Shown: positions 73-62,135 of the stretch, piece after piece
Numbering within the stretch: the first letter of the stretch is position 1
How the letters are laid out: every line of letters starts with the position of its first letter
Assembly (NCBI GenBank): GCA_006386115.1
Contig: VFIW01000086.1
Location: forward strand, 1 to 64,000
Direction of reading: 5' to 3'
Length of the DNA stretch: 64,000 nt
Origin: Globisporangium splendens
Lineage: Eukaryota; Oomycota; Peronosporomycetes; Pythiales; Pythiaceae
Notes under the pieces: generated by a model
Told to the model about the DNA's origin: nothing
The model's database searches: none
Seen by the model: only the letters and a program-made list of their open reading frames with translations
Translations under genes and position numbers: made by a program

Positions 73-1923
73 ATGGATGCTACAGGAACCCCACTCGGCC
101 CAGCAATACCGAAAACTGTCGAGTTGACTATTGAGGGTTTCCCTCATTTGTCTTCTCATGAGTGGATGGCGCTTGAGCGCATGCGAGATGTCATCGGAGA
201 GGCTGCCGTGGTCAGCCTGCTTCGGTCGGCGTCTCCGGAGGACCAGAAGAGCGCGGCGGTCGGCTTCATGCACCACGAGATCATGTCCTCCCGGAAGCAG
301 GTCGCAACCCTTGTTTCCTCACTCAGGACGGTGCCGCTGAAGCTTGACGTCTCTCCGTATCGCGGCGGAGAGAACGAACCTCTCTCACGATGGTTCGTCG
401 AGTTGGATGCAGCCACCGCTGCAAGACAACTGCGAGACCCTTCGCAGCAAGTGTTGTTCGCGATGTCCAACCTTGCGGGTCGTGCGAAGAGCTGGGCATA
501 TGGCAAGCGTTTAGTCGATCTAAACTGCTTCCCCAGCTACGACCACTTCAAGACCGAACTCAAGAAGGCGTTTGAACCTCCACAGAGTGAGTTCCGTGCG
601 TGCGCCGAGTTCCTCAAGCTTCGTCAAGGTCGTTTCGACCTTCACTCGTATGCACAACGTGCTCGCTACTTGGTGTCGAGCATCGTTGACGAGCCGATTG
701 ACGTTCCGACGCAAGTCGTGACGCTCATGACGGGTCTGAACGATGGTCCGATTCGGAACCAACTGTTCCGCGAGTACCCCAAGACGCTGGACGAAGCCAT
801 TGAGCGCGCGATGCAAGAAGAGTTCAGCATCAAGCAAGCGAAATTCCATGGCTTTGCGTCGAGACCAATGCGGCAATCAAATGTCGTGCATGATGGTCCC
901 GAGCCTACAGACATCTCGTACATTTCCACGCCTGGGAATGAGCGTCCTCGCAACGATGGGAAGTGTTTCCGTTGCGGGAAGCCGGGTCACATTGCTCGGA
1001 ACTGCAAGGTGTCTTTGCCGGGTCGGCAAACGACACAGGGTGCTCGTTCGAACAACCGCGATCGTTCTTACGGTCGTCGGTTCGAGCGGTCACCTGGGCC
1101 AAAAAAACGGGAATGGACAGTAGGGGTGGGGCCTCCTACTGGCCCGGAAAAGAGGACTGTGGACGTTGTGGAGACACAGGACTCTGGCTCCTATGTGCAT
1201 CAAGCACATGCAGTTTCCACTATGAGTGAGAAGAGTGTCAGTCAAACGTCAAGTTTGATCGTTCACAAAGTTCATGTAGACGGTATTGCAACGCCTCTAC
1301 GAGCTTTGGTTGACACTGGTGCGTCGAACAACTTTGTTCGGAATGAAGTGATCGTCAGGCATGGTGTCTTCGTGCCTGATGCGAATGAAGAGAAGGCAAT
1401 GATTGTCCGGTTGGCAAATGGGTCAACTGTGAAGATGCCGAAGCGCGTGGTGCGCTTGGCAATCAAGTGTGAAGATTTCCGAGGTGAAGACGAGCTTATT
1501 TTACTCGACCTCGATGACAAGTTTGACATCATCCTGGGAATGCCGTGGTTGAAGCGTTACCAACCTAGCATTGACTGGATGAATATGAAGATCTCCGTTG
1601 ACAAGTCACGCGATGTTGACTTGTGCTGCACAACAACGGATGAAGTTGTATGGGTGTATACATCTGTGGAAGAGATCCCAGATGTCCCTTGTGATATTGT
1701 GGTGTGCGATGGCCCCCCATGTTCACAAGTGGTACCCATTTTGAAGAAGATGAACGGAGGTGGAGCAGTCAGGCGCCAGAAAAAGACTGTCTCCTTTACC
1801 ATCGACGACGAGAGGGTTCGCGATGGCGTTGACAAGAGTGAATGGAAGAGGAACAGACACCCTTCCCAAGAAGAAGAAGACCAGCAAGAAGAGTGTTTCG
1901 CCAAGAGTTTTGAGTTCCCCTGA
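73..1923 (+). CDS. Gag and aspartic protease of gypsy A
   Basis: An open frame of 616 residues. Residues ~1-290 are a retrotransposon Gag (capsid-like, with the YDHFKTELKKAFEPP and LRQGRFDLHSYAQRAR stretches), which packages element RNA in cytoplasmic particles. Residues 298-311 are a CCHC zinc knuckle (CFRCGKPGHIARNC) that binds nucleic acid. The retroviral-type aspartic protease follows, with active-site DTGAS at D414 and the ILGMPWL motif near its end. Gag and protease share one frame here, unlike element B. The frame runs out at 1923; RT sequence continues in the +1 frame from about 1800. The start at 73 is chosen because it is the first ATG of the frame and matches the gag position in B, ~70 nt after the leader. 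The ORF itself is intact, although the downstream pol is not. Confidence 0.88.
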   Translation: MDATGTPLGPAIPKTVELTIEGFPHLSSHEWMALERMRDVIGEAAVVSLLRSASPEDQKSAAVGFMHHEIMSSRKQVATLVSSLRTVPLKLDVSPYRGGENEPLSRWFVELDAATAARQLRDPSQQVLFAMSNLAGRAKSWAYGKRLVDLNCFPSYDHFKTELKKAFEPPQSEFRACAEFLKLRQGRFDLHSYAQRARYLVSSIVDEPIDVPTQVVTLMTGLNDGPIRNQLFREYPKTLDEAIERAMQEEFSIKQAKFHGFASRPMRQSNVVHDGPEPTDISYISTPGNERPRNDGKCFRCGKPGHIARNCKVSLPGRQTTQGARSNNRDRSYGRRFERSPGPKKREWTVGVGPPTGPEKRTVDVVETQDSGSYVHQAHAVSTMSEKSVSQTSSLIVHKVHVDGIATPLRALVDTGASNNFVRNEVIVRHGVFVPDANEEKAMIVRLANGSTVKMPKRVVRLAIKCEDFRGEDELILLDLDDKFDIILGMPWLKRYQPSIDWMNMKISVDKSRDVDLCCTTTDEVVWVYTSVEEIPDVPCDIVVCDGPPCSQVVPILKKMNGGGAVRRQKKTVSFTIDDERVRDGVDKSEWKRNRHPSQEEEDQQEECFAKSFEFP

Positions 1924-2518
1924 TCAAGGTACAAGTGGTGATGACGAAGGGAGTGTCCAAGCACAAGACATTCCAAGCGAGTTTGCGAATATCGCGGTCT
2001 ACAATGAAGAAGGTGACGTGGATGTAATCCGTCACGTGAAGGTTGAAAATCCTCCAAGTTCAGTCGAAGAGTTGATTTCCTTGCCATCGATGAGCAAGAA
2101 GACATTGGAGCGCAGCCTAGCGAGAGGCGACATTGCGCAAGTGTGTGTGGTTGTCGAAATGGTCGACGAAGGCTTCGTCAACACAGCATCGAGTGCGGAT
2201 GCAGATGTGTTGGACGAAAAGACACGGAAGGAAAGGTTCGAGGAGCAGTCGTGAGATGCCCTCAAGAAGAACCCCGTGTATGCGCTTGCCAGGGAATTTG
2301 AAGACATTTTCCCTGACAAGGTGCCGGACGAATTGCCATTCAATAGAGGCATTCGTCATGAGATTGATGTACTTCCTGGCACGAAGTACTGCATCACAAG
2401 ACAGTGGCCGTTGCCAAAGGAACAAGTCGAGGCAATCGACGAGTTCTTTGCACAACGTGCTAAGGCTGGTCATGTGCGGGAGAGCAAGTCTCCGCATTGC
2501 AGCCCACTTTCTGTGTGA
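1800..2518 (+). pseudogene. Gypsy A pol: protease-RT spacer and RT N-terminus (broken)
   Basis: This frame carries the acidic spacer between protease and RT (VEELISLPSMSKKTLERSL, matching the EEMSYELFLTDLERD spacer of element B) and then the RT start with DVLPGTKYCITRQWPLPKEQVEAIDEFF. An in-frame TGA at 2252-2254 replaces the tryptophan seen in B (AAQDWDAVK), so it reads as a TGG to TGA nonsense mutation. Near 2505 one base is missing from a run of C, which sends RT into the next frame. The entry point from the gag-protease frame near 1800 needs a +1 shift; whether that was ever programmed cannot be decided from one copy. Confidence 0.8.
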
Positions 2519-4335
2519 AGAAGGCAACTGGAGGTTGGCGCATTGTTCACGCTTTCAACAAGCTGAACGACGCGACAATTCCAGCCCAGACTCCGGTTCC
2601 ACACAAGGATATGATCCTTGATGGAATGGTTGGCAACACCGTCTTCAGTGCTATCGATCTGAAAGATGGGTTCTGTCGGATTCGAATGCGCGAAGACGAT
2701 GTTCCACTAACCGCAGTGAGTACCCCGAGTGGTATGCTGTGGGAATGGTTAGTGATGCCACAGGGACTGAAGAATGCTCCTGCGACCTTCAATCGAATGG
2801 TCACGAACGTTCTTCGTCCTCTGCGAACATTTGCACCAAGTTACTTTGACGATATTTTCGTTCACAGTAAGACCACGAATGGGGAGTCTGATGTCGATGT
2901 TCATCTCGATCATCTTCGTCAAGTTTTCCAGGTCATGCGTGAGAACAAACTCTACGCAAACTTGAAGAAGTGCATGTTGTTCGCCCCCGAGATCCCTGTC
3001 CTCGGTTGTTTTGTGGGCAAGAGCGGTGTTCGAGTCGATCCGGAGAAGGTCAAAGCTATTGACGATTGGCCAGTGCCAAAGAACGTCAAGCAGCTACGAC
3101 AATGGTTGGGTCTAGCCAACTACTTGCACAAGTACACGCGCAATTATGCAGCGTTGGTGCAACCCCTCACACAGCTCTTGAAGAAAGACGTTGAGTGGAA
3201 GTGGTCGAAAGACCATCAGACGGCGTTCGAAGGAGTCAAGAGGAGTCTTCGAGAAGCTCCTGTCTTGGCTCTGCCAAACCACGACAAGCCGTTCCACGTC
3301 GTCTGTGATGCGAGCGACTATGCCATCGGTTGCACATTGATGCAACACGATGATGAGGGTCACGAGCGAGTTGTGTCGTATCAGTCACGACAACTCCGAC
3401 CCGCAGAGCGGAACTGCCCAGTTCATGACAAGGAACTTCTGGCGATGAAGTATTCTTTGGTCAAGTTCCGTGTGTATCTGCTTGGCGAGGAGCGCTTTGC
3501 TATCTGCACTGATCACGCATCTCTGCGTACAGCAGTGAAGACTCCTCATTTGTCGCAAAGAATGGCGAGATGGTTCTCCTTCTTTGCAGAGTACAACTTC
3601 GTTGTACACTACAAGCCAGGCAAGACGAACATCTTAGCCGATGCGCTGTCAAGACGTCCGGATTACGATCCGAAGACCAAGAGTGAAGACACGGACGGAG
3701 CGTGTCGACTCTGTGAAGATGTTCAAGCGATCGCGGTGCGAGCTGCGACTACAGTGCGAGAAGAGATTGTCGAAGGGTACAAGTCTGACGAAACATGTCA
3801 GGACTTGCTGAAGTACTTCAAGGACCCTTCGGACAAAGCACTGCAAGGTCTTCCGTCGCGCACAAGATCGCGAGTTCACCGCTTCCGAGTACACAATAGG
3901 TTGTTGTACTATGCGGTCGAACAAGGGGATACAGCAAGGGTTGTTGTTCCCAACGACGAAGGTCTGCGTCATCGACTCTTGTATGAGTACCATGACAGCC
4001 CTTCGGGTGGCCATCTCGGACGTGAGAAAACGTTTCTCAGTCTTTCCCGGGATTACTACTGGCCACACATGTACAAGTGGGTTCGCAAGTGCGTGAGGAC
4101 TTGCGAGATCTGCCAACGAGTGAAACCTTCTGGTTCCACGCAGGCACCACTTCGTTCATTGGCTGTCCCATCGGACAGTTGGAAGTCTGTGAGTATGGAT
4201 TTCATATTCGGACTTCCAAGAGACACACATGGACGCAATGCATCCTTGTGTTTGTGGACCGATTCAGCAAGATGGTTCATCTTGCGCCTGTTTCGGACAA
4301 GATCTCTGCTGAGAAGACTGCCGAGGTCTTTGTAG
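2497..4335 (+). pseudogene. Gypsy A pol: reverse transcriptase, RNase H, integrase zinc domain
   Basis: A 612-codon open stretch. RT copies the element RNA into cDNA; its catalytic YFDD is at residues 116-119, preceded by the FSAIDLKDGF and MPQGLKNAPATF motifs. RNase H follows (VVCDASDYAIG, KELLAMKYSLVKFR, TDHASLRT, ADALSRRP). The integrase HHCC zinc-binding domain is present (HDSPSGGHLGREKTF then CEICQRVKP), and the first catalytic aspartate of the integrase core is in SMDFIFGLP. Around 4238 the homology moves to another frame, explained by loss of one base, so the last ~30 residues here are out of frame. The upstream continuation is in a different frame across the ~2505 deletion. Confidence 0.87.
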
Positions 4336-5672
4336 ACGTCGTATTCCGTCTACACGGACTACCAGTCGAGATCGTGTCTGACCGTGACACCCGTTTCACG
4401 TCCAAGTTCTGGCGTGCACTGTTCGGACTTCTGGACACCAAGTTGTCCATGTCAACAGCGGCACACCCTGAAACGGACGGTCAAACAGAGCAAGTGAATC
4501 GCGTCCTCGAAGACGTGTTGCGCAGCTACGCAACGTCTTTCAAAGAGTGGAGCGACTATCTCCCTCTTGCCGAGTTTGCGTTGAACAACTCCACGCATGT
4601 CTCGACAGGTCACTCTCCATTTTATGTGAACTATGGCATTCACCCTCGAGTGCCTGCTTCCGTAATGGGTGAGGTCTCTACCTTAAGTGGGGGAGGGATT
4701 CCGGCTCATGGTAACAAGCCGAAGTCGTCTTACGACCTGAATGCTGCTTCCGAGTTGAAAGCCAATTTTGACTCGATGAAACCCCTCGACGGCCTAACAA
4801 GTCGTGAAGAGCAGCAAGTCGATGACTTTGTTGTGAGGAGACAAGCCGTTGTGAGGTTTGTTCGAGACGCAATCACGAAGGCTCAGGATCTGCAAAAGGA
4901 ACAAGCAGACAAGAGCGGAAGGAAGAACAAGCAAGTGTATAAGATCAATGATCTTGCATTACTTAGCACGGCGAACCTGCCTGAACATGCAGTGTCCAAC
5001 TTGGGAAGCTCGAAGCTTCTGCCAAGGTTCATTGGACCATTCAAGGTAGTGAAATGCAATGGTGATGCCTACACGCTAGACATACCTACACGCATGCGTC
5101 TACACCCTACATTTTATGTGGGTAGACTGAAGCCTTACCTTCCAAGTGGATCTGCGGATCCTACGAGATCTTCCGCAAACGATCGAGCTGGTCGTGAAGC
5201 TTCTACACTTGATTGCGAAGAGCAAACAGCTCATCGCTCTGGAGATTCTTCTCGGCGTACAGGAGTTGCAGGACGTCGAAGGATTGGTCCTTCACTGCCT
5301 CCAACGCTTGAAGACGAGAATGGTACTCACCACGAAGTATCTCGAGTGCCGAACCTGCCTCTTCCACAGAGCGCAACAGGCGATCGTGAGCCAACTCACG
5401 AGACTTCACGTTCTTCCAGAGTCGAACAAGTTCGTCTTGAACCTGTTGGAACCGTTCCACGAAACGGGACTCCAAAGCCGAACACTGGGCAGAACCTTCT
5501 GTCAGATCGTCGATCTTCGACTCATGATCGGCGACAAGGTTCTCGAGACTCTCGCAGCGTTCCTCAAGCGTCGAACAACGATGCTGCAAAGCCTCGATTT
5601 GCCCACGATGAGCACTCTTCCACTTCCAGAGTCGCTCAATCGTTTTCTCGTTCAGCCCCACCCCGTTGTTAG
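4077..5672 (+). pseudogene. Gypsy A pol: integrase core, C-terminal domain and linker
   Basis: Genuine coding starts near 4238, where LVFVDRFSKMVHLAP enters this frame. It holds the second and third acidic residues of the DDE integrase core (SDRDTRF and the ETDGQTEQVNR region), then the C-terminal domain with LLPRFIGPFKVV and HPTFYVGRLKPY. Integrase inserts the cDNA into the genome. From ~5150 to 5660 the product is a Ser/Arg/Thr-rich, low-complexity linker without recognisable fold. That same DNA read on the minus strand encodes a long heptad-patterned coiled coil, see the antisense entry. The frame ends at 5672 because of a one-base deletion around 5652-5666 that separates it from the chromodomain. 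Confidence 0.85.
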
Positions 5673-6227
5673 ACTCTCAGGGAGAGCATCGCTGGGTGGT
5701 TCAGTCGATTGTTGATCATGAAGATCGACCGACTCATCGTCGAGGAAAGAAGCAGTTGAACCATCAACGCTTCTACAGAGTTCGGTGGCGTGGATATCCA
5801 CCGAGCTCGGACACGTGGGAACCTCGTCAGACATTGGAGTCTGATGTTCCCGACGTGGTCCGCAGCTATGAGAACTGCTTGTAGCGTCGCCAGGGACGAC
5901 ACTACGACGACCAGAGCTAAGGTTCGCTCTGTCGTCAGCGGGAGTTCTTCTTTGGGCACGAGCATTGCCACGACGAAGAAGACGCTCCATCTTGTTCTCA
6001 TTCTCAAGACGAACAAATGTTCGCCATGAGTCTCTCTGGGCTGCGACGTGTTGGTTCGGATCATCGCGATCGTTGATCCGACGCCAACTGAAGAACCGCT
6101 CCTTGTAGAACTCGAGATCCCCCTTCTTCTTCAGAATGGGAGAAATGTCGAAGAGTTCTGGAGCTGTCCGCTGTCGCTTGGACGACGGACGTTCTTCACG
6201 GTTCACTTGGTCACTTGGTCGCTTCAT
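5203..6227 (-). pseudogene. Antisense coiled-coil ORF of gypsy A (one frameshift)
   Basis: This minus-strand reading frame starts at ATG 6227 (an upstream in-frame ATG at 6326 lies in the 3' LTR), runs opposite the pol 3' tail, chromodomain and linker, and stops at 5203. The first part (6227-5652) begins with a basic stretch (KRPSDQ...SSKRQR) resembling a bipartite nuclear signal. The second part (5661-5203) is a long heptad-patterned coiled coil (IEALQHRCSTLEERCESLEN and onward). The parts are one base out of frame; restoring one base near 5652-5666 gives about 341 codons and at the same time rejoins pol. Antisense codon position 1 lies opposite sense position 1, the same phase as in element B and not the codon-aligned phase typical of shadow ORFs. 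No function is known to me; regulatory or nuclear roles are inference. Confidence 0.6.
5666..5884 (+). pseudogene. Gypsy A pol: C-terminal chromodomain
   Basis: About 70 residues contain a chromodomain fold signature: HRWVVQSIVDHED, then FYRVRWRGYPPSSDTWEP, then SDVPDVVRSY. In chromoviral integrases this module binds modified histone tails and steers insertion to heterochromatin. It sits one frame away from the integrase linker; adding back one base near 5652-5666 joins the two. The stop is TAG at 5882-5884. The minus strand of the whole domain is also open, as the middle of the antisense ORF. Confidence 0.85.
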
Positions 6228-6303: not shown

Positions 6304-6440
6304 TGTAATGGGCCATAACCAGCCATTACATGAAGGTGGATCTGTTCCCAGATCTAGTGTGCCATACACCACCTTCAGCGTGCATTGTGGAGACACAAAT
6401 AACAAAAGGGATTACGGTAAGACAGTCCCCACATGCACGT

Positions 6441-6463
6441 GTGACGTCATTCGATGACGTCAC
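6441..6463. promoter_or_regulatory. Double TGACGTCA (CRE-type) palindrome in A LTR
   Basis: The sequence gtgacgtcat-tcg-atgacgtcac is a perfect inverted repeat with 10-bp arms and a 3-bp spacer. Each arm holds TGACGTCA, the classical palindromic site for CREB/ATF-type bZIP factors. Its place in the U3 part of an LTR fits an enhancer. Binding is inferred from the motif only. Confidence 0.6.
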
Positions 6464-6474
6464 GAGTGTTCTCT

Positions 6475-6554
6475 GTGCTGATCAGTGCAGAATGTTGTTC
6501 TCATGTACTAATCAGTACTGAGCAATGACATCCATGTACTAATCAAGTACTGAG
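6475..6554. promoter_or_regulatory. Three palindromic repeats in A LTR
   Basis: Related imperfect palindromes lie at 6475-6490 (gtgctgatcagtgcag), 6505-6522 (gtactaatcagtactgag) and 6536-6554 (gtactaatcaagtactgag). The last two are spaced 31 bp apart. Repeated palindromes next to the CRE pair look like an LTR enhancer array. Confidence 0.5.
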
Positions 6555-6763
6555 TGATGGTTCCTGCTTGGGAAACTGGACTGGCGACGAGACCGACGTG
6601 TCTCTGCCGCCTGGAGTGAGTGGTGCGAGCCAATCACTTTGCAGGGATTTTATACAAGACTTGAAGTTCAAGCTTGTAGAAGATCCCGTAGGTTCAACCT
6701 CAGTGTACCCAAGGTTTTATATATCATATTCATAGGTTTTATTGTGTATATTTAGGTTTTAGT

Positions 6764-6770
6764 TATAAAA
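6764..6770 (+). promoter_or_regulatory. TATA-like box in A LTR
   Basis: tataaaa, about 460 nt into the LTR and downstream of the palindromes, is a plausible core promoter for the element transcript. The position of transcription start is not visible. Confidence 0.4.
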
Positions 6771-6839
6771 GCTGTAGGATCCCTTGGGGTTCATTAGCAA
6801 GTAGCGACAGGAACCATAACCATTTTTAATTCAGTTGCA

Positions 6840-7460
6840 AATTTTCCTCCGAGCCCTCAAGTTTTCTTCCTCCCTCCAAGTCGGGAGATCGCTTCCTCAT
6901 CGCACAAGCGTGTGTGCCGTGTTTGAGGGACTGTTGTTAACAGCGCCCACTTGCACGTGAGGTACGACGAAATTCTTGTACCCTCGAGGCCCTCTGGCGA
7001 AATACGCTCTGCGCCTAGCGCGCAGAACGCACATTCAAAAACCCCCGGCACCCCGCATGGGTTGCCTGCACGCACACACTCGGAGTGTATGCGATTGAGC
7101 TTCCCTCGGAAGGAGTGACACTCATAGCGCTCACGCGCATCGCGAAAGCGACGCATGAGCCCGCCGCCGCGAGCCCGCACCAGCGCTCCAAACCTCACTC
7201 AAACCGACATGCCAAACATGCCAAACTTGCCACTTGCCACTTGCCACTTGCGCGCGCAAAAACGCAAAACCGCAAAACCGCAAAACCGCAAAACGCCAAC
7301 ACTCGCTCAAGCCAACTCGCCACATGCACATTCGCGCACCTTGCCATCACGTACCCGCTCTTGCTCGCTCGCTCGCTCGCTCTCCCACATGCAATGCACC
7401 ACGCCGCCGCGAGCCCGCGCCATCGCACCAGCGCTCCAAACCTCACTCAAACCGACATGC
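6840..7460. other. Gene-free spacer with short repeats
   Basis: No convincing coding signal. It contains (CGCAAAAC)x4 at 7263-7294, a (GCTC)n run at about 7363-7382, and a ~50-bp direct repeat (gccgccgcgagcccgc...aaaccgacatg) at 7161-7211 and 7402-7460, the second copy with a short insertion. Open frames here are low-complexity His/Pro/Arg products of the repeats. Confidence 0.6.
7161..7460. repeat. Direct repeat pair flanking microsatellites
   Basis: The unit gccgccgcgagcccgc...cagcgctccaaacctcactcaaaccgacatg occurs at 7161-7211 and again at 7402-7460. Between the copies lie the CGCAAAAC and GCTC arrays. Confidence 0.65.
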
Positions 7461-15744: not shown

Positions 15745-15749
15745 ACTTG
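15745..15749. repeat. Target-site duplication acttg, left copy (gypsy B)
   Basis: acttg occurs here and at 24275-24279. Uninterrupted C units read ...gcacgacttgggcacc at this point, so removal of B and one acttg recreates the empty site apart from one base change. Confidence 0.85.
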
Positions 15750-16285
15750 TTAACCGGACACTTCCGAGTTACGCAGCACGGTACGTGTGTGAGAGAAGCG
15801 TATGCAACGCTTCTCTCAAGGACTCTGTTCCGAGAGCGGTTGCCTGCTTCCTGCAGTGCAACAATCGGTTACCTATAGATCTCTATAGAGTAACCGTCGA
15901 TAACCAAAGGCTTTAGTTAACGGTAAAAAATGGAACTGTTTATTTGTTGGAGGTTGCCCTCTGTAGGACAACCTGGATTATCTTTATGTAACTATGAACA
16001 ATAGCAACCTCAAGTGTAATTACTCCCCATGGGACAATGAGTGGCCATGAAAGACTAACGCTAGTTGTCTTATGTGATTGGATGAAATGCATGTTCAATT
16101 ATATCCAATCGGAGGCGCCGTCACTCAGACTGGCTGCCGGCTCCACCGTGAAGGTTCGATCAAGTACGACGAACCTCATGGTTCGGTCTTAAACTTGTTG
16201 CGCGTACTCTACGTACCGCAAGGTTCGGTTTGGTTGTGTGGTACAACACAAGTGCGTAACCATGTTACAGTGTAACCCCGTTACA
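15750..16285 (-). repeat. 3' LTR of gypsy B
   Basis: In element orientation it starts TGTAACGGGGTTACA (a palindrome) and ends GGTTA(C)A; one base of the terminal TGTAAC is missing compared with the partner at 23740-24274. An AATAAA polyadenylation-like signal lies at 15939-15944 on the minus strand. Confidence 0.88.
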
Positions 16286-16469: not shown

Positions 16470-18014
16470 ATGGCCACCAACAAAGCTGTCCGCGAGAAGC
16501 TCGCGCGACAAAAAGGGGAAGGCGTCGGCACTCTCGTCGAAACTTTGCGCAAGCGCGAGGAAGACAGAGAGGTCGCGTCGAGCGCAAGACGAACGACGGT
16601 CACCGCGGATGCGGTCGACGTGCCTGCGGAGAGCGACGGCAGGTCTGCTCCCACATCTGATAGCGCTCCTGCTATAAGCAGTGAGCTGCGATTCGGAGAT
16701 CTCCCTTCCGTGAAGCCGCTGTTCGCGCGTGCTTTGGAAGAGGAGGAAGCGACTGAGGAATTCCTCGTCGTTGACAATGACGGGAGCTCGCTTGAAGACG
16801 AGGGAGCGCTCACCGTGAAGCTCGGCTCCATCGACGAGTGGGTCGAGTACGAGGAGTTGCAAAGCGAGCGACACGCCGCTTATCTCCACGAGCTCGAGCG
16901 AGATCCATCCGCTGACGTCTCGATGTATCGGACGAAGGAGGAAAATGACGCCGTTGAGGCTGTCAACAATCGTAAGAGGAAGCACGAAGTCCTCATTACA
17001 AACGAAGAGGCAGGAGTGCGAGCCATCGTTCACGATGAGCTCAAGTACTCACTGCCCGAAATGCCGCCGCCAGAACTATGGCCGGCTGGCAAGACCGCAT
17101 CGAATCTGCTCGCGAGAGCTAGACTTTGTGCGCGGGACTATGACGCTCAATTTAAAAATTGGCGTGAAAAGCGATTGCGGGGTGAAAATGGGGAATTGCG
17201 TATTCACCCGATCCCAGTCGTCCTCTTTGTTGGAGAGACGGAAGAAGAGTACGATGCCGACTTCATGTCGTGCATCAGTAAAATTAAGGGAGGTAGCACT
17301 CGCACAGTGTCTACCGATCCGACAGCGCAACGCAGTCAACGCATGCAATTTGCAGTTGACCGTGTTCGTCTGTTTCGCTTCAAGCAGGGCGGTGGCACGC
17401 CTCTGCGAGCGGGTGGTCGCGCTGGTAACAGGCGACAAATTACTCGCGCGAATGACAGTCCCTCAGTTGCGCCTCAAAGGCGTCAACAAGATCCGGGACG
17501 TCTTCGCGAAGACGCTCAGCAGGCTCCCACGAGCTCTGCGACACATCGTACCCACGCCACTTCACAAGGTAGTGGGTGTTCCCCTTACGCCGCTGCACAC
17601 GTAGCAGGCGCTCAACATGGTTGTGGCGCTGTCCCTGCTTGTCAATCAGCGGGACAGGTGGCGCCCTACTTCGCTTCAGCATCGGTGGTTGCACCAGATG
17701 CGGTGGTTCAGATGGTTCACGCGAACGCATCGTCTTTGGGGGCGCTACAGCAAGACGTCCGTACCTTTCGCCAGCAATATCTGGACGAAACCTCGCTGTT
17801 GAAGCAGAGGGTGACAGCGCTTGAGACGGAGCTGAAGGGAGCTCGTCAGATGCTGGAGGAGTACCATGTCCGCGGGAAGCACTTCCACGCGAGGTACGCT
17901 CCGCGAGTGAAGACGCTTTGGGAGAGGCACAACGCGCTCGTGTCTCGATGGGCGGCGTCTGAGCCCCCTGATGAGACCGACGTGCTCCCGCACTGGGATA
18001 AAAATCCACAGTAG
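16470..18014 (+). CDS. Antisense coiled-coil protein of gypsy B
   Basis: An uninterrupted plus-strand frame of 514 residues, antisense to the element. The ATG at 16470 is preferred over the in-frame ATG at 16428 because its context (atcATGg, A at -3 and G at +4) is good and it lies 185 bp inside the 3' LTR. The first ~970 nt lie beyond the pol stop, so that part is not a shadow of any pol frame; the last ~575 nt overlap the chromodomain and linker. The protein is charged and acidic at first, has a basic cluster RKRKH at residues 168-172, a Gln/Ala-rich middle, and a coiled coil at about residues 422-475 (LLKQRVTALETELKGARQML). It stops just after the position opposite FYVGLLKRY of integrase. 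Its location, phase and architecture match the antisense ORF of element A. No known family is recognised; a nuclear or regulatory role is inference. Confidence 0.7.
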   Translation: MATNKAVREKLARQKGEGVGTLVETLRKREEDREVASSARRTTVTADAVDVPAESDGRSAPTSDSAPAISSELRFGDLPSVKPLFARALEEEEATEEFLVVDNDGSSLEDEGALTVKLGSIDEWVEYEELQSERHAAYLHELERDPSADVSMYRTKEENDAVEAVNNRKRKHEVLITNEEAGVRAIVHDELKYSLPEMPPPELWPAGKTASNLLARARLCARDYDAQFKNWREKRLRGENGELRIHPIPVVLFVGETEEEYDADFMSCISKIKGGSTRTVSTDPTAQRSQRMQFAVDRVRLFRFKQGGGTPLRAGGRAGNRRQITRANDSPSVAPQRRQQDPGRLREDAQQAPTSSATHRTHATSQGSGCSPYAAAHVAGAQHGCGAVPACQSAGQVAPYFASASVVAPDAVVQMVHANASSLGALQQDVRTFRQQYLDETSLLKQRVTALETELKGARQMLEEYHVRGKHFHARYAPRVKTLWERHNALVSRWAASEPPDETDVLPHWDKNPQ

Positions 18015-19410
18015 CGTCATGGTAGCGTTTCAGCAAACCCACGTAGAACACGGGGTGCGTTGCCATTCTCGTTGGGAGATCGAGCTTGTAATTCAAGTCT
18101 CCAATCTTCTCCACAACAGTGTATGGCCCGATAAATCGTGGCAACAACTTACTCCCGCTGGGGAGCGTTGTGACTGCATCGTTTGGTAGGTTTTTAATGC
18201 TTAAAAGCACTTTATCACCCACACAAAACGTTTGTTTGTTCTTTCTACCCGATTTATCGGCGTAGAGCTTTTGCTTGTCTTGCGCAGCAGCTAGTTGGTC
18301 GCGTACGCGACGCAACAATGCTGCGCGCTCATCGACAAATTGCCGCGCTGCCGCGACGGCTTTGTCTTGCTTTTTCGTTGCTCTCGCAGCGCGTGCTGCA
18401 GAGAGATCTATTTCTGCGCCGGTGTGTGACACCGCGCGTCCTTCCATTCGTGGCTGACGCTCACGCGAGCAGTCGCCTGATTCCGTCTGAGACTGGCTAT
18501 TTTTAGCACGAGTACCGTAACTCAGTACCGTGGGAGAGCCATCTATAGACACACGAGTACCGTAACTCAGTACCGTGGGAGATCCATCTTTAGGGACACG
18601 TGTACCGTAACTCAGTACCGTGCCCGACATGTCAATACTCTGCGTGCTGTCCGGTAAGACCGTGACAGATTCGGAACGCGATCGCACAGGCGGCGCATCG
18701 CGCGCGTCCACGTGAGCGGTCGACACCACGTCCGGTGACGGAGATCGCGCGCTCGCATCGAGCGCAGCGAGTTGCCCTCCCACCGCAGAACGTTCGACGC
18801 CCTCGAACAGAGTGGCGGGTACGCGCGGGTGCCGCAGCGAGTTAAAATAGAACGGAGTCACGGCCGAAGAGTCGTGCTCGCTGCTATTTATAGCAAACTC
18901 GGCGTACGGCAGCCAGCGGCTCCAGTCGCGGGGATGATCGACAGCGATGCTGCGAAGAATATCCTCGACGACACGGTTCACGCACTCGGTTTGCCCGTCT
19001 GTCTCGGGGTGATCGGCAGTGGACAACGCCAGATCTGTGCCGAGCAGGCGAAAGAGTTCGCGCCAAAGGCAGCGGTAAAACGCGGGTCCCGGTCTGATAC
19101 AATAGACTCGGGCAAGCCGTGATAGCGGAACACGTGCTCTAAAAATAGGCACGCCGTCTCTTGCGCAGTGACATGCTTGCGCACGGGTGCAACATGCACC
19201 ATTTTGCTCAGTCGGTCGACGAACACGACGACGCCTGTGTTGCGCGCCTTGTCTTCCGGGAAACCGAAGACGAAATCCATGCTGACCGACTTCCAGCAGT
19301 CTTGCGGAATCGGCAGCGGCGCTTTGTTCTTGCCCGCAGGCTTCACGCGCTGGCACTGCTCGCATGAGCGTACATAATTGGCCACCCATTTGTATTGGTG
19401 TGGCCACCAA
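17440..19410 (-). pseudogene. Gypsy B pol: integrase core end, linker, chromodomain
   Basis: Real homology begins near 19065, where FYRCLWRELFRLLGTDLAL continues the integrase core from another frame after a lost T in a run of T (TTTGGCGC for TTTTGGCGC). It includes HPETDGQTECVNR with the third catalytic acidic residue, the C-terminal domain (LLPRFIGPYTVV, HPVFYVGLLKRY), a long Ser/Pro/Arg-rich linker and a chromodomain (LLRVQRRKG, HYLVKWRGYDVSQSSWEP, VPDLVDAFEAQL). The region 18480-18620 encodes three short repeats (VLSYGTRV). The stop is at 17440, about 1.15 kb before the 3' LTR; that long tail is occupied by the antisense ORF. Confidence 0.87.
18490..18640 (-). repeat. Triple short tandem repeat in B integrase tail
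   Basis: The stretch acgagtaccgtaactcagta recurs three times (about 18507, 18552 and 18598, ~46 bp apart), encoding GTVLSYGTRV-type repeats in pol. Confidence 0.7.
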
Positions 19411-23737: not shown

Positions 23738-23739
23738 GT

Positions 23740-24274
23740 TGTAACCGGACACTCCCGAGTTACGCAGCACGGTACGTGTGTGAGGAAGCGTATTCAACGC
23801 TTCTCTCAAGGACTCTGTTCCGAGAGCGGTTGCCTGCTTCCTGCAGTGCAACAATCGGTTACCTATAGGTCTCTATAGAGTAACCGTCGATAACCAAAGA
23901 CTTTAGTTAACGGTAAAAATGGAACTGTTTATTTGTTGGAGGTTGCCCTCTGTAGGACAACCTGGATTATCTTTATGTAACTATGAACAATAGCAATCTC
24001 AAGTGTAATTACTCCCCATGGGGCAATGAGTGGCTATGAAAGACTAACGCTAGTTGTCTTATGTGATTGGATGAAATGCATGTTCAATTATGTCCAATCG
24101 GAGGCGCCGTCACTCAGACTGGCTGCCGGCTCCACCGTGAAGGTTCGAGCAAGTACGACGAACCTCATGGTTCGGTCTTAAACTTGTTGCGCGTACTCTA
24201 CGTACCGCAAGGTTCGGTTTGGTTGTGTGGTACAACACAAGTGCGTAACCATGTTACAGTGTAACCCCGTTACA
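23740..24274 (-). repeat. 5' LTR of gypsy B
   Basis: 535 bp, TGTAACGGGGTTACA...GGTTACA in element orientation. Partner of 15750-16285. Confidence 0.9.
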
Positions 24275-51246: not shown

Positions 51247-51853
51247 ATCGCGTCAATTGACCCTGCGCAGTTCCCGCACCTCTCGGCTGAACACCGGAGT
51301 GTGCTGACCCGAATGGCACAAGCGCTAGGCGACCAAGTCGCTCTAGACGTGCTCTCGGCGTCGCCGGAACAGCAAATCTTTCGACTCGAGCAGTTCGAGA
51401 ACTTCTCGAACGCTCAGCGCCTCGAAGGAGAGCGAAGTGCGCAAGCACAAATGCAAGCCACCGCAAGCTTGACCGCAGAGATGCTGCGCTCAGCTGCTGA
51501 GTCGCGCGAAGCGCTCGAGCGAGTGGTTTCTGTGGTTGCTGGTGCAGCCACGTCTTTGTCGAGTGCGGCTTCTGCGCCTCAGACACCCGCGTCCCAAACT
51601 CCCCGCCCAAGAGCTGTCAAGATCGACGCTCCGAAATTCGATGGTGCGGATGGCGACAAGCTCATCCACTGGCTACTCGCCGTGGAGCGTTGCGCCAAGG
51701 CTCAGCTCATCGACAGCAACGAGCAGATGGTGTCTTACGCCATCTCGAACCTGCGCGGTCGAGCGTCGGAATGGGCATTCTCGACGTTGCTCGCCGATGA
51801 GTGTGCATTCGACACGTGGGATATTTTCCGTGCGAGAATCACCGCCATGTATC
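51247..51853 (+). pseudogene. Truncated gypsy-B gag, copy 1
   Basis: About 202 codons of the N-terminal half of B Gag (SIDPAQFPHLSAEHRSVLTR to RARITAMY). The normal start ATG is ATC at 51247-51249, the same change seen in copy 2, so it predates the duplication. It stops at gtatc where a C LTR begins; element B reads gtatcagcctcc there. No zinc knuckle. Confidence 0.87.
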
Positions 51854-52218
51854 TGTTGAAACGGGGCACTTGAGTGGTTGGATGCAAAATGCAAAGTGAT
51901 TGATTGAATGAGGTCCTTAGTTCACATGCACACATGCTACCTCTAAGCCTACTGGATTCTTTCTGGATTCTTGTCTGTACTATCCACAAAGAATATTACT
52001 CATAAACAGCTGGTGGGTGCGATCAGATCCTGCACCCACAATCATGTCTTACCTGTCGTAAACATATTACCGTATATACTGGAGTGGCGTAAATACGCAC
52101 ATTCAGACTTGACTGTCGCAATCTTGACATTCGGACAAACTCGACACTCGACAGTTACACAGTCGGTGCTCGAGTCGCACTTTCGACAACATTGTCAACA
52201 TTGTCAACATTGTCAACA
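51854..52218 (-). repeat. C LTR without internal region (junction 1)
   Basis: 365 bp. Left flank gtatc and right flank gcagg do not match, so this is not a simple solo LTR but a recombination junction. Confidence 0.88.
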
Positions 52219-53336
52219 GCAGGCTTGCACTCTTCCATGCCGAAACGCCGCAAAATGTCGTCGACGTAACGACGCTGGCACAGTGTCACACTGCCATCGT
52301 CGTGGTCGATGAGCTCGATGCCGAGCACGAACTTGCACTTGCTGCTGTCGGTCATCTCGAAGCGCTGCTTGAGCTGCTGCTTCACTTGCGCAATGATCTC
52401 GACGGAACTTCCGGTCACGATCACGTCGTCGACGTACACCAGGAGCAACGCGCACTGATTATCGACGACCTTGAGGTATAGACACGGGTCGAAGTCGGAC
52501 ACGGCAAAGCCGATCGAGCGCACGAACTCGTCGAAAGTCTCGTTCTACACGCGAGACGCCTGCTTGAGACCATAGATCGACTTGAGCAGCTCGAGGCAGT
52601 CGTGGTCGGAGTCGATCTCCATGCCTTCGGGCACCAAGATGAACACGGCTTCTTTCATCGCGCCGTACAGGAACGCCGTCACGACGTCGAGTTGGTCGAC
52701 GGGCCAGCCGAAGAATTTGGCGAGCGCGATCACGATGCGCAGCGTCACGTACTTCACGACTGGCGCGAACGTCTCCGTGTAGTCGATGCCGTACTTCTGT
52801 TTGAACCCCTTTGCGACGAGTCGAGCCTTGTACTTGTTGATCGACCCGTCCGCGTTGCGCTTGATCTTGAAAACCCACTTGGTACCGATAGCGCGTTGAC
52901 CGGCAGGGAGCTTCGCCGCGCGGAACACACCGCGCAATCTCATCGACTTGAGCTCGGCGCGAATCGCATCGCGCCAGTGCACTTGGTCGGGGCCGCTGAC
53001 AGCTTCTTGAAACGAGGTTGGCGCAGACATGTCGGTCGCAACGACCATGTTCGCGCTTGCGCGCCACCACTCCACGGGCGAAATGCGCTGCCGAGTCGAA
53101 CGCCGAGTCGCACCGTCGTCATTGTCGTCCTTTACATCGTCTTCGGTCGGGATTTCGGCCGACTGCGACGCACCAGCACGGCGTTTGCCAGTGTACTTGA
53201 AGTCGGAAAGTCGATAGCCTCCCTCGATGTCGATCGCCTCAAGTCGAGTCAGGAGTTCCGAAACGCCACCCGCCGAGTTGTTCAGAAGCGAACCGCCGAT
53301 CACGGACTCGTCGAAGTTGACATCGCGACTGATCAC
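52219..53336 (-). pseudogene. Copia-3 pol fragment, copy 2
   Basis: Near-identical to 49525-50642. It has an additional nonsense codon TAG at 52545-52547 (W in the YGLKQASRVWNETF motif) and KEAVFIL for KEVVFIL. Confidence 0.88.
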
Positions 53337-53340
53337 AACG

Positions 53341-53869
53341 TGTAACGGGGTTACACTGTAACATGGTTACGCACTTGTGTTGTGCCACACAACCAAACCT
53401 TGCGGTACGTAGAGTACGCGCAACAAGTTTAAGACCGAACCATGAGGTTCGTCGTACTTGCTCTAACCTTCACGGTGGAGCCGGCAGCCAGTCTGAGTGA
53501 CGGCGCCTCCGATTGGACATAATTGAACATGCATTTCATCCAATCACATAAGACAACTAGCGTTAGTCTTTCATAGCCACTCATTGCCCCATGGGGAGTA
53601 ATTACACTTGAGATTGCTATTGTTCATAGTTGCATAAAGATAACTCAGGTTGTTCTACAGAGGGCAACCTCCAACAAATAAACAGTTCCATTTTTACCGT
53701 TAACTAAGTCTTTGGTTATCGACGGTTACTCTATAGAGACCTATAGGTAACCGATTGTTGCACTGCAGGAAGCAGGCAACCGCTCTCGGAAGAGAGTCCT
53801 TGAGAGAAGCGTTGCATACGCTTCCTCACACACGTACCGTGCTGCGTAACTCGGAAGTGTCCGGTTACA
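53341..53869 (+). repeat. Gypsy-B-family 5' LTR, copy 2
   Basis: 529 bp, near-identical to copy 1. Confidence 0.88.
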
Positions 53870-53941
53870 ACTGGTAGCACTTGTAGTCAATCTACGACCC
53901 GGCAGAGGTGACTGCCTGAATCGCTTCCTCAAGGATTCATA

Positions 53942-54548
53942 ATCGCGTCAATTGACCCTGCGCAGTTCCCGCACCTCTCGGCTGAACACCGGAGTGTGCT
54001 GACCCGAATGGCACAAGCGCTAGGCGACCAAGTCGCTCTAGACGTGCTCTCGGCGTCGCCGGAACAGCAAATCTTTCGACTCGAGCAGTTCGAGAACTTC
54101 TCGAACGCTCAGCGCCTCGAAGGAGAGCGAAGTGCGCAAGCACAAATGCAAGCCACCGCAAGCTTGACCGCAGAGATGCTGCGCTCAGCTGCTGAGTCGC
54201 GCGAAGCGCTCGAGCGAGTGGTTTCTGTGGTTGCTGGTGCAGCCACGTCTTTGTCGAGTGCGGCTTCTGCGCCTCAGACACCCGCGTCCCAAACTCCCCG
54301 CCCAAGAGCTGTCAAGATCGACGCTCCGAAATTCGATGGTGCGGATGGCGACAAGCTCATCCACTGGCTACTCGCCGTGGAGCGTTGCGCCAAGGCTCAG
54401 CTCATCGACAGCAACGAGCAGATGGTGTCTTACGCCATCTCGAACCTGCACGGTCGAGCGTCGGAATGGGCATTCTCGACGTTGCTCGCCGATGAGTGTG
54501 CATTCGACACGTGGGATATTTTCCGTGCGAGAATCACCGCCATGTATC
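53942..54548 (+). pseudogene. Truncated gypsy-B gag, copy 2
   Basis: Same limits and same ATG to ATC start change as copy 1; one residue differs (SNLHGRA for SNLRGRA). Confidence 0.87.
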
Positions 54549-54913
54549 TGTTGAAACGGGGCACTTGAGTGGTTGGATGCAAAATGCAAAGTGATTGATT
54601 GAATGAGGTCCTTAGTTCACATGCACACATGCTACCTCTAAGCCTACTGGATTCTTTCTGGATTCTTGTCTGTACTATCCACAAAGAATATTACTCATAA
54701 ACAGCTGGTGGGTGCGATCAGATCCTGCACCCACAATCATGTCTTACCTGTCGTAAACATATTACCGTATATACTGGAGTGGCGTAAATACGCACATTCA
54801 GACTTGACTGTCGCAATCTTGACATTCGGACAAACTCGACACTCGACAGTTACACAGTCGGTGCTCGAGTCGCACTTTCGACAACATTGTCAACATTGTC
54901 AACATTGTCAACA
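54549..54913 (-). repeat. C LTR without internal region (junction 2)
   Basis: 365 bp, again flanked by gtatc on the left and gcagg on the right. Confidence 0.88.
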
Positions 54914-56048
54914 GCAGGCTTGCACTCTTCCATGCCGAAACGCCGCAAAATGTCGTCGACGTAACGACGCTGGCACAGTGTCACACTGCCATCGTCGTGG
55001 TCGATGAGCTCGATGCCGAGCACGAACTTGCACTTGCTGCTGTCGGTCATCTCGAAGCGCTGCTTGAGCTGCTGCTTCACTTGCGCAATGATCTCGACGG
55101 AACTTCCGGTCACGATCACGTCGTCGACGTACACCAGGAGCAACGCGCACTGATCATCGACGACCTTGAGGTATAGACACGGGTCGAAGTCGGACACGGC
55201 AAAGCCGATCGAGCGCACGAACTCGTCGAAAGTCTCGTTCCACACGCGAGACGCCTGCTTGAGACCATAGATCGACTTGAGCAGCTCGAGGCAGTCGTGG
55301 TCGGAGTCGATCTCCATGCCTTCGGGCACCAAGATGAACACGACTTCTTTCATCGCGCCGTACAGGAACGCCGTCACGACGTCGAGTTGGTCGACGGGCC
55401 AGCCGAAAAATTTGGCGAGCGCGATCACGATGCGCAGCGTCACGTACTTCACGACTGGTGCGAACGTCTCCGTGTAGTCGATGCCGTACTTCTGTTTGAA
55501 CCCCTTTGCGACGAGTCGAGCCTTGTACTTGTTGATCGACCCGTCCGCGTTGCGCTTGATCTTGAAAACCCACTTGGTACCGATAGCGCGTTGACCGGCA
55601 GGGAGCTTCGCCGCGCGGAACACACCGCGCAATCTCATCGACTTGAGCTCGGCGCGAATCGCATCGCGCCAGTGCACTTGGTCGGGGCCGCTGACAGCTT
55701 CTTGAAACGAGGTTGGCGCAGACATGTCGGTCGCAACGACCATGTTCGCGCTTGCGCGCCACCACTCCACGGGCGAAATGCGCTGCCGAGTCGAACGCCG
55801 AGTCGCACCGTCGTCATTGTCGTCCTTCACATCGTCTTCGGTCGGGATTTCGGCCGACTGCGACGCACCAGCACGGCGTTTGCCAGTGTACTTGAAGTCG
55901 GAAAGTCGATAGCCTCCCTCGATGTCGATCGCTCTAAAGTCGAGTCAGGAGTTCCGGAAAAACGCCACACGCCCCGGGGGGGAAGGGTTGTTCAGAAGCG
56001 AACGCGATCACGGACTCGTCGAAGTGACCATCGCGATGATCACAACCG
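54914..56048 (-). pseudogene. Copia-3 pol fragment, copy 3
   Basis: Clean to about 55925, then dense indels destroy the integrase tail. Otherwise as copies 1 and 2 with VVDDQCALL for VVDNQCALL. Confidence 0.82.
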
Positions 56049-56950
56049 GGTACGGGGTTACACTGTAAATGGTACGCAAATTGTGTTGGTGCACACAAAC
56101 CAAACATTGCGGTAAGTAGAGTAGCCAAAAGTTTAAGACCGAACCATGAGTTTCGTCAGTACTTGCTCGAACCTTCACGGTGGAGCGGCAGCCAGTTGGT
56201 TGACGGCGCATCACGATGGGATAGAATTGAACATGCATTTAATCCAATAAAAATAAGACAACTAGAGTTAGTCTGTCATAGCCAATCATTGCCCAATGGG
56301 GAGTAATTAACTTGAGATTGCTATTGTTATAGTGCATAAAGATAAACTCAGGTTGTCTACAGAGGGCAACCTCCAACAAATAAACAGTTCCATTTTAACC
56401 GTTAACTAAAGGTCGTTGGTTATCGACGGTACTCTAAGAGGACCTATAGCGTAACGAGTGTTGCCACTGCAGGAAGCACGGGCAACAGCTCTCGGAAGAG
56501 TCTGAGAGAAGACGGTGAATACGCTTACCTTCACACACGTACCGTGCTGCGTAACTCGGAAGTGTCCGGGTACAAAACTGGTAGATTGTAGTCAATCTAC
56601 GACCGGCAGAGGTGAATGCCTGAAATCGCTTCATCAAGGATTCTAATCGGCGTCAACAATTGACCCGCGCAGTATACCGCACCTCTCGGCTGAACACCGG
56701 AGTGTGCTGACCCGAAGGGCCCAAGCGCTAGGCGACCAAGTAGCTCTAGATCGTTGCTCTCGGCGTCGCCGGAACAGCAATCTTCGACTCGAGCAGTTCG
56801 AGAACTTCTCGAACGATCAGCGCCTCGCAAGGAGAGCGAAGTGCGCAAGCACAAATGCAAGCCACCGCAAAGCTTGAACGCAGAGATCGCTGCGCCTCAG
56901 CGCTGAAGTCCGCGAAGGCTCGAGCGAGTGGTTTCTGTGGTTGCTGGTGC
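55925..56950. other. Block of dense single-base indels
   Basis: Compared with the two neighbouring copies, this ~1-kb block has insertions and deletions in and around short homopolymers at high density, with sharp edges. It looks like uncorrected long-read consensus, not decay. Confidence 0.7.
56049..56575 (+). repeat. Gypsy-B-family 5' LTR, copy 3 (indel-rich)
   Basis: Recognisable as the B LTR but with an indel every ~15-30 bases; limits are approximate. Confidence 0.7.
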
Positions 56951-57258
56951 AGCCACGTCTTTGTCGAGTGCGGTTTCTGCGCCTCAGACACCCGCGTCCC
57001 AAACTCCCCGCCCAAGAGCTGTCAAGATCGACGCTCCGAAATTCGATGGTGCGGATGGCGACAAGCTCATCCACTGGCTGCTCGCCGTGGAGCGTTGCGC
57101 CAAGGCTCAGCTCATCGACAGCAACGAGCAGATGGTGTCTTACGCCATCTCGAACCTGCGCGGTCGAGCGTCGGAATGGGCATTCTCGACGTTGCTCGCC
57201 GATGAGTGTGCATTCGACACGTGGGATATTTTCCGTGCGAGAATCACCGCCATGTATC
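56576..57258 (+). pseudogene. Truncated gypsy-B gag, copy 3 (indel-rich start)
   Basis: The first ~370 bases are full of indels; from ~56950 the sequence is clean and matches the other copies through RARITAMY. It ends at gtatc, followed by the C LTR of the second array. Confidence 0.78.
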
Positions 57259-57623
57259 TGTTGAAACGGGGCACTTGAGTGGTTGGATGCAAAATGCAAA
57301 GTGATTGATTGAATGAGGTCCTTAGTTCACATGCACACATGCTACCTCTAAGCCTACTGGATTCTTTCTGGATTCTTGTCTGTACTATCCACAAAGAATA
57401 TTACTCATAAACAGCTGGTGGGTGCGATCAGATCCTGCACCCACAATCATGTCTTACCTGTCGTAAACATATTACCGTATATACTGGAGTGGCGTAAATA
57501 CGCACATTCAGACTTGACTGTCGCAATCTTGACATTCGGACAAACTCGACACTCGACAGTTACACAGTCGGTGCTCGAGTCGCGCTTTCGACAACATTGT
57601 CAACATTGTCAACATTGTCAACA
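57259..57623 (-). repeat. C LTR, left edge of second array
   Basis: 365 bp, three 9-bp repeats; shares gtaaatacgc and gtcgcgctttcg with C LTR 2. Confidence 0.88.
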
Positions 57624-60600: not shown

Positions 60601-61822
60601 CACCCTTCAGCTTCACGAAACACTTGTCGACGTCGAACGTGATCGGACCCACATCCTTGGTGAACCGACTCACTGCGAAGAGGTTCTGACTCAATTTGGG
60701 GATATACCACACATTCGTGAGTACGCCTTTCCGAGGTCCGCGCGGAGTCTCCATCATCATCTCGACATCGCCACATCCGATTGCTTCGACTGTACCATCG
60801 TCCGCAAGGTGCACTTGCACAGGCTTGATCGCACGATAGTTCTTCAAACACGCTTTCGAGCAGGTCATGTGCTGGGTCGCACCAGAGTCAATCAACCATA
60901 TCGACGCATCCGCATGTCCACCGACGTCGTCCCGAGCCATGAACAGGTAGTCGTTGTCGTCAAAACCAGTGTCGTCGCGCGCAAAGTGCGCATGCTGTTG
61001 GCGCCGACGATCGCTGTTTTCTTGGTTGCGAGTAGGGCACTCCGCGATCCAGTGGCCGTGTTTCCCGCAGTGTCGACACGCGCCAGTCTTCTTCATCGGA
61101 CGTCCCTTCCGTTTCGAGTCGCTTGTCATGAACGCTTGATCGGACGCAAAACCTTCACCATGTTGTTCCTTGCGCTTCATGTCTTCGTGCATCAATCGCG
61201 CAGTCACCAGTCCCCACGTCAGCGTGTCCGCACGCGACTCCAACGCAGTGATGAGGAACTGGTACGACTCGCTCAAACTGCCGAGCAGCGTGATCACGAG
61301 GTCTTCCTCACTGACCGGAGCGCCGACCGCGTCGAGCTGTTCCGCCAGTGTCTTCAACTTGTTGATGTGCTGGAGCACGTCGTTGCCGTCTTCCATCATC
61401 GCCGTGAAAAAGCGTCGACGAAGAGAGAGCTTGTTGGCGAGACTCTTCTTCTCGAAGTGCGCCTCCAGCTTCGACCATGCATCGTGCGCTCCACTTGCTG
61501 AACGTACCAACGGCAGTTGCGAGTCTTCCAAAGCGAGACAGATGATCGCGAGTGCCTTGCGAGACTTCTTCCGGTACACCGCTTGGTCGCTCTCGGTCTG
61601 GCAGTGTTCCAGCTTGATTTCACCGCTGACGACTTCCCACAGCTCACGCTCTTCCAGCACCATTTGCATCTTGAACTTCCACGTGTGGAAGTTGGTTCCG
61701 TCGAACTTGATACGGGAGGCGGTGGAATCCGTGTTGGCGGAGGCAGCGGCGGCAGAATCGGCGAAGGTTGGGCTCATAACCTGTTGAAACGGGGCACTTG
61801 AGTGGTTGGATGCAAAATGCAA
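57560..61822 (-). pseudogene. Second C array, unit a gag-pol
   Basis: RT and RNase H (59650-57560) and Gag to integrase (61822-60185) are clean and typical of C. Between ~59650 and 60185 dense indels break the integrase C-terminal region. Variants FVRGKVEDD (shared with unit 2) and SRIKFDGTN (shared with unit 6) show mixed ancestry. Private changes include TMMEDGN-type FFTAMMEDGND and FAPMAKF. Confidence 0.87.
59650..60185. other. Block of dense single-base indels
   Basis: Sharply bounded indel-rich block within an otherwise >98% similar C unit; probably low-quality consensus. Confidence 0.7.
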
Positions 61823-62135
61823 AGTGATTGATTGAATGAGGTCCTTAGTTCACATGCACACATGCTACCTCTAAGCCTACTGGATTCTTGTCTGTACTAT
61901 CCACAAAGAATATTACTCATAAACAGCTGGTGGGTGCGATCAGATCCTGCACCCACAATCATGTCTTACCTGTCGTAAACATATGACAGTATATACTGGA
62001 GTGGCGTAAACACGCACATTCAGACTTGACTGTCGCAATCTTGACATTCGGACAAACTCGACACTCGATAGTTACACAGTCGGTGCTCGAGTCGCACTTT
62101 CGACAACATTGTCAACATTGTCAACATTGTCAACA
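61782..62135 (-). repeat. C LTR between units a and b of second array
   Basis: 354 bp with three 9-bp repeats and the same 11-bp loss as C LTR 7. Confidence 0.88.

Follow-up and report, generated by a model that had tools for sequence, protein, structure and literature searches.

A long open reading frame runs on the strand opposite the end of pol in a Ty3/gypsy retrotransposon of Globisporangium splendens, and the question raised by this locus is whether that frame is a gene. The window analysed is a stretch of 64,000 nucleotides (contig VFIW01000086.1, positions 1 to 64,000), in which the retrotransposon, designated element A, represents a chromodomain gypsy family present in many copies; the genome searched was the assembly of 53,310,241 bases in 195 contigs. 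A first-pass annotation of the window had proposed a conserved overlapping antisense gene in element A and in a second gypsy element, B. The analysis described below indicates that these chromodomain gypsy elements very likely carry a real, selected, protein-coding antisense gene that serves the element. The features of element A are as follows.

73 to about 6954, plus strand: element A (Ty3/gypsy), with its 5' LTR before the window start
73..5141, plus strand: gag-protease and pol of element A, with pol split over two frames in the window copy
73-1923, plus strand: gag-protease of element A
5112-5138, plus strand: FYVGRLKPY motif of A pol, just past the antisense stop
5139..5674, plus strand: spacer of A pol between integrase and chromodomain, with the coiled-coil part of the antisense gene on the other strand; the sense protein is weakly conserved here
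5164..5202, minus strand: last antisense residues in intact A copies, past the early stop of the window copy
5203..6227, minus strand: antisense gene of element A, window copy, as 6227-5655 and about 5670-5203 in different frames
5675..5881, plus strand: chromodomain of A pol (PF00385, E 6.5e-13), opposite the antisense gene
5882-5884, plus strand: A pol stop
6304..6954, plus strand: putative 3' LTR of element A, in a window without an LTR pair

The A pol contains reverse transcriptase, RNase H, integrase and SH3-like domains and a C-terminal chromodomain. The inner edge of its 3' LTR was placed by eye, from the terminal CA and the purine tract, and the outer edge by the loss of homology among 59 copies; the antisense ATG at 6227 lies ~76 bp from this putative inner edge (counted by eye). 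The frame that had been described on the minus strand from 6227 to 5203 is present, though split in two in the window copy, which is broken: an indel near 5655-5673 puts both the antisense gene and pol out of frame. A tblastn search with the protein of an intact copy (P0001) placed the start and N-terminal part at 6227-5655 and the C-terminal part at about 5670-5203. The stop at 5203 is premature, and the frame of intact copies extends to the position of window 5164. The intact gene has about 355 codons (copy L019 encodes a 355-residue protein), with ~240 codons opposite pol, across the chromodomain and the spacer, and about 115 codons beyond pol. The anatomy that had been claimed, a start near the 3' LTR, passage through the chromodomain and spacer and a stop beside FYVGRLKPY, was borne out. 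Element B has the same arrangement.

15747..16285, minus strand: 3' LTR of element B, 97.8% identical to 23739-24274
16470..18014, plus strand: antisense gene of element B, uninterrupted over 514 codons in the window copy
17440-17442, minus strand: B pol stop
17470..17619, minus strand: chromodomain of B pol (PF00385, E 2.8e-14), opposite the antisense gene
23739..24274, minus strand: 5' LTR of element B, from the LTR pair comparison

The B antisense ATG lies 185 bp inside from the 3' LTR; about 324 codons lie beyond pol and the rest overlap it, and the overlap amounts to about 190-240 codons across A and B. Each element has, between pol and its 3' LTR, an open frame that runs antisense to gag-pol, and in both, as proposed, antisense codon position 1 lies opposite sense position 1. 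In this phase the antisense third position pairs with the sense second position, and the antisense second with the sense third, so that the two strands can be distinguished by where changes fall. Element B also contains, at window 18507-18641, a 45-bp unit repeated three times; the repeats lie where the pol frame is open, upstream of the SH3-like domain.

The antisense sequence is abundant in the genome. A 224-residue probe from the A antisense protein gave 150 scored matches among 446 candidates, the matched part being free of stops in 135 of them, and a second antisense query from an A subfamily gave 116 scored matches among 477 candidates. The B antisense gene gave 83 matches among 192 candidates, some of them belonging to a second family, B2, with 61-63% identity. 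A 32-base pattern taken from the antisense gene opposite the A spacer occurred 326 times genome-wide, and its control pattern 0 times. For a count without frame bias, 125 scored integrase matches (1072 candidates) were inspected for antisense sequence downstream, as presence of the sequence and not of an intact frame. An antisense-probe match was found just downstream, on the opposite strand, for 88 of the 125; among the remaining 37, 13 lay on contigs covered by the listed occurrences of the 32-base pattern, which was in place in all 13. Together with copy L085, which was read directly, the antisense sequence is present beside at least 102 of the 125 integrase matches, the other 23 being unchecked, and is not confined to scattered copies at a length no greater than composition predicts. 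Two copies were fetched from the 37: L085 was intact, and in L086 the frame was open but lacked the ATG where other copies have it. Of the 60 A copies fetched, 46 contained the complete frame, 350-360 codons counted from the usual start, and 14 did not.

The synonymous codons of the overlapping part of pol were shuffled in 2000 trials per copy, and the antisense frame was scored as open or closed. The A frame was left open in 0/2000 shuffles for each of five copies, with a mean of 6.2-8.9 stops, and the B frame in 0.2-0.85% of 2000 shuffles (three copies). The long opposite frames of the copia elements in the window had been described as holding antisense position 1 against sense position 3; this was mostly right, being the case for four of the five tested, and failed for the remaining one, which faces position 2. 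In the former register an antisense stop corresponds to a whole sense codon, so that synonymous shuffling cannot close these four frames and says nothing about them; in the fifth, 1.6% of shuffles left the frame open. The copia-type repeats themselves, at window 8643-40048 and 51853-62069, share one orientation and a spacing of about 4.5 kb, and several pairs are 99-100% identical, as in a tandem array with shared LTRs.

Evidence for selection came from the codon positions at which copies differ. Variable columns, defined by a minor allele in at least three copies, were counted in the 46 intact A copies in three zones, beyond pol (115 codons), chromodomain (74) and spacer (168). In this order of zones, the counts by antisense position 1/2/3 were 12/8/19, 7/13/9 and 33/28/69, in copies that are non-independent and were selected via antisense matches; the spacer gave p 1e-5, and the zone beyond pol (0.09) and the chromodomain (0.38) were not significant alone. 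The signal was larger between subfamilies, each represented by one copy. In the same order of zones, the changes by antisense position were 5/4/13, 4/6/5 and 28/22/57 for A1-A2, 33/31/54, 14/20/9 and 45/29/68 for A1-A3, 98/104/160, 17/35/18 and 57/47/81 for B-B3, and 116/89/177, 10/18/10 and 5/1/6 for B-B2, whose spacers are too similar to tell. Antisense versus sense protein identity was 0.87 vs 0.88 in the chromodomain and 0.74 vs 0.55 in the spacer for A1-A2, 0.63 vs 0.79 and 0.65 vs 0.45 for A1-A3, and 0.44 vs 0.65 and 0.33 vs 0.13 for B-B3.

These differences did not depend on aligning by the antisense protein in element A, as a nucleotide-based alignment left the A numbers unchanged. For B-B3 the nucleotide alignment gave 17/33/18 in the chromodomain and 37/34/58 in the spacer, after exclusion of 40 aligned positions that were out of register, and antisense versus sense identities of 0.44 vs 0.64 and 0.40 vs 0.17. 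Transversions alone kept the same order across the overlap in A1-A3, A2-A3, B-B3 and B2-B3, and the chromodomains of A1-A2 and B-B2 had too few changes to tell. The ratio of nonsynonymous to synonymous change (N/S), calculated for 80 sampled pairs per class (675 near pairs, 360 far) with changes creating antisense stops excluded, was 0.43 for the antisense frame beyond pol. In the chromodomain it was 0.57 (near) and 0.67 (far) for the antisense frame and 0.23 and 0.38 for the sense frame; in the spacer it was 0.26 and 0.49 for antisense and 0.80 and 1.34 for sense. The codon positions and the rate ratios therefore show that selection preserves the antisense protein past the end of pol and across the spacer, and that pol dominates in the chromodomain.

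That the frame is a chance by-product of pol codon usage and local composition, with no protein made, has a precedent in the gene-free long opposite frames that exist in the window, for example in the copia elements, but this reading is refuted by the codon-position tests and retains a negligible probability, since every shuffle closed the frame in the five A copies, spacer variation is highest at sense position 2, contrary to the pattern expected if pol coding were the sole constraint, and the gene extends past pol with an antisense third-position bias. Purifying selection on the antisense protein keeps the frame open in two element lineages; the differences between copies show selection on the backward protein, which is the product of a real gene and not of a chance reading frame. 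Within each lineage, the codon-position tests, the synonymous shuffles and many homologous proteins support the proposal that the overlapping gene is conserved. In a further reading the antisense transcript has its effect as an RNA, for example by forming double-stranded RNA or by hindering transcription of pol, which leaves the open frame as an incidental feature; this reading draws on the RNA roles that passages of PMC10186651 describe for retroviral antisense transcripts and passages of PMC7264820 discuss for plant elements. However, the changes follow antisense codon positions, and relatives as distant as 43% identity conserve amino acids, a pattern that a role as RNA does not call for; we regard this reading as highly improbable.

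The predicted antisense proteins form two families. The A family comprises 82 proteins with 43-99% identity over the aligned part, and no relatives in named species other than G. splendens were found among these 82 from sequence search or the 85 from profile search. Among the best 8000 candidates, the B family comprises 34 proteins with 37-98% identity, none in a named species other than G. splendens. Relatives were also sought in viral contigs with the A and B profiles and in prokaryote contigs with the A profile, and none were found in these collections, from which records near the window's genome may have been left out. In A proteins the conserved features are a basic motif close to the N-terminus, the sequences FYKERFFxWRR and SWRTFVRLENE, and a long C-terminus with heptad periodicity; conserved in B proteins are a head with MPPPxxWP, NLLARARV, HPIPV and GETE, and a shorter heptad-periodic stretch before YAPRVKxLW. 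The heptad periodicity of the C-terminus was matched by 0/1000 shuffles for each of two query and seven relative proteins (0.58 for the A N-terminus). The shared fold type claimed for A and B held only as far as this coiled-coil-like C-terminus. The claim of a basic N-terminus was right in part, the first 60 residues having 15 K/R vs 11 D/E in A and 12 vs 11 in B. The motif K-K/R-x-K/R, which resembles the NLS consensus, occurs near the start in 18/23 A proteins and 0/16 B proteins, and arises in 30% of shuffles of the first 44 residues of the A query.

A Pfam search of the 23 A and 16 B proteins gave scattered matches of coiled-coil type, any one family matching at most 2/23 A and 1/16 B proteins, and a PDB profile search gave no match for B and, for A, four weak ones at E 0.0016-0.0061, each either a short designed coil or a tail needle; neither search yielded a convincing known domain or solved-structure family. 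An origin from gag or pol was likewise set aside, as tblastn of eight antisense proteins against the window matched the antisense genes alone. Public G. splendens hypothetical proteins, for example FI667_g1773 (a cluster of 78 sequences), are transposon antisense genes, and some public gene models join antisense genes to Gag or copia parts (P0046, P0086).

We propose that the antisense accessory gene begins just inside the 3' LTR, fills the gap between pol and LTR and runs back through the chromodomain and the integrase-chromodomain spacer. The load is divided along the overlap, with pol dominant in the chromodomain and the antisense protein dominant in the spacer. Antisense transcription would be driven by a promoter within the 3' LTR or next to it. 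Inspection by eye showed matches to the oomycete initiator YCAYTYY, as defined in the passage of PMC3599244 drawn on here, ~20 bp before the A ATG and at the LTR edge in B; these matches may well be due to chance. The product may be a coiled-coil, self-associating accessory protein for the element's own cycle. The A protein could act in the nucleus, affecting element transcription or integration at chromatin, as is known for HTLV-1 HBZ and has been proposed for plant Grande and Retand proteins; nuclear action is suggested by the NLS-like motif, and we consider a nuclear regulatory step possible, at a little short of an even chance. In another reading the gene is real and encodes, rather than a nuclear regulator, a helper of structural or cytoplasmic kind, such as a coiled-coil protein that partners Gag particles. 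The coiled-coil-like C-terminus is all that A and B proteins have in common, the NLS-like motif is missing from the start of all 16 B proteins, and no DNA-binding family was matched, all of which fits a helper; against it, the basic motif near the start is conserved in 18 of the 23 A proteins, and the analogues described in passages of PMC7264820 and PMC10186651 are nuclear. We consider a helper role possible, though less likely than not.

The first-pass annotation had taken the same location, phase and fold type in two lineages as evidence for a conserved overlapping gene. Whether A and B share one antisense gene by descent was addressed by profile comparison. The pols of A and B are 63% identical over 590 residues. 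The full antisense profiles matched with a probability of 57% (E 1e-4) over the complement of the shared chromodomain and the beginning of the coil, a likeness that is confounded because sense conservation and coil composition can create it there. The N-terminal parts alone gave a probability of 0.4% (E 0.15) and the C-terminal coil parts alone 9.9% (E 0.0032, 27 columns), so that no significant A-B profile similarity was found outside the strand opposite the chromodomain. Homology of the two proteins was not supported by this comparison and is left unproven, the sole full-length match being one that crosses from the chromodomain-opposite strand into the coil. Place, phase and architecture recur in A and B; common descent of the proteins is unproven.

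If A and B acquired their antisense genes independently, the shared place and phase would be convergence. Pols that are 63% identical yet have profile-unrelated heads, and coils weakly alike at best, are what such independent gain would leave. The start region, the phase, the stop beside FYVGxLKxY and the order of head, chromodomain complement and coil are nevertheless all shared, the full-profile likeness reaches E 1e-4, albeit in a confounded stretch, and heads can be exchanged, since those of B and B2 are 51% identical and their spacer parts 96%. We consider independent gain an even call. A joint reading, offered tentatively and judged somewhat doubtful, is that A and B come from one ancestor that already had the antisense gene and that the heads have since been replaced or have diverged past recognition; the pol spacer would now be chiefly the gene's back, with a chromatin-reading domain on one strand and, on the other, a nuclear partner or regulator of the element. 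Mosaics between subfamilies were seen in L054 and L079-L082: relative to B, the B2 copies have a diverged antisense head and a near-identical spacer part, L082 has a B2-like head with a B tail, and L054 mixes A1- and A2-like parts. A short look-alike in the heads, FYKERFFxWRR in A and YDxxFxxWRE in B, is not significant (0.4%) and is possibly a trace of common origin.

The selected antisense gene proposed here for chromodomain elements is closest in kind to the antisense accessory ORFs of plant Retand and Grande and to hbz of HTLV-1. Passages of PMC7264820 and PMC11963269 report antisense ORFs located between pol and the 3' LTR in plant Retand, Grande (gene23) and RIRE2 and in fungal Boty; like those of A and B, they are of protein length and kept in most copies, and in its passage on Grande the review PMC7264820 gives the antisense protein as nuclear and transcribed from its own promoter. 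The plant and Boty genes are placed between pol and LTR in these passages, which mention no pol overlap (the word 'overlap' has 0 occurrences in PMC7264820 and PMC11963269), whereas ~190-240 codons lie opposite pol in A and B; the host here is an oomycete and the element has a chromodomain. The Retand antisense protein contains TRP28 (PF04195), which was not found in the 23 A or 16 B proteins at E 0.01, and Retand has a non-chromovirus pol without a chromodomain, unlike the A and B pols. HTLV-1 hbz, an analogue with known action in the part of PMC10186651 used, is likewise read antisense, from the side of the 3' LTR, and its product ends in a coiled coil. HBZ has a bZIP domain, whereas the A and B proteins match no bZIP family, have only a heptad-periodic C-terminus and bear no sequence relation to it; that part of PMC10186651 presents HBZ as a nuclear protein that represses the provirus and is transcribed from the 3' LTR. 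Chronos, in the sections of PMC5348765 consulted, is likewise an oomycete Ty3/gypsy element with a chromodomain after the integrase, at the end of pol. It is described there with a dual RNase H, the second of plant type, whereas the A and B pols match RT_RNaseH and RT_RNaseH_2 only (E up to 1), and the word 'antisense' has 0 occurrences in that paper. A literature search by title and the start of the abstract gave, among the matches listed, none on an antisense gene in oomycete gypsy elements. What is new here is the oomycete host and the long pol overlap with measured selection on both strands; the antisense accessory gene itself is of a known kind.

Long antisense overlaps in which both proteins are under selection are hard to prove, and a high-copy family supplies the evidence internally: in one phase, over ~1 kb, the constrained strand switches from antisense to sense and back to antisense. 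Antisense accessory genes are thereby extended to the chromodomain elements of oomycetes, and some hypothetical proteins of the published G. splendens gene set are explained as transposon genes. Whether retroelements repeatedly evolve hbz-like partners becomes a testable question.
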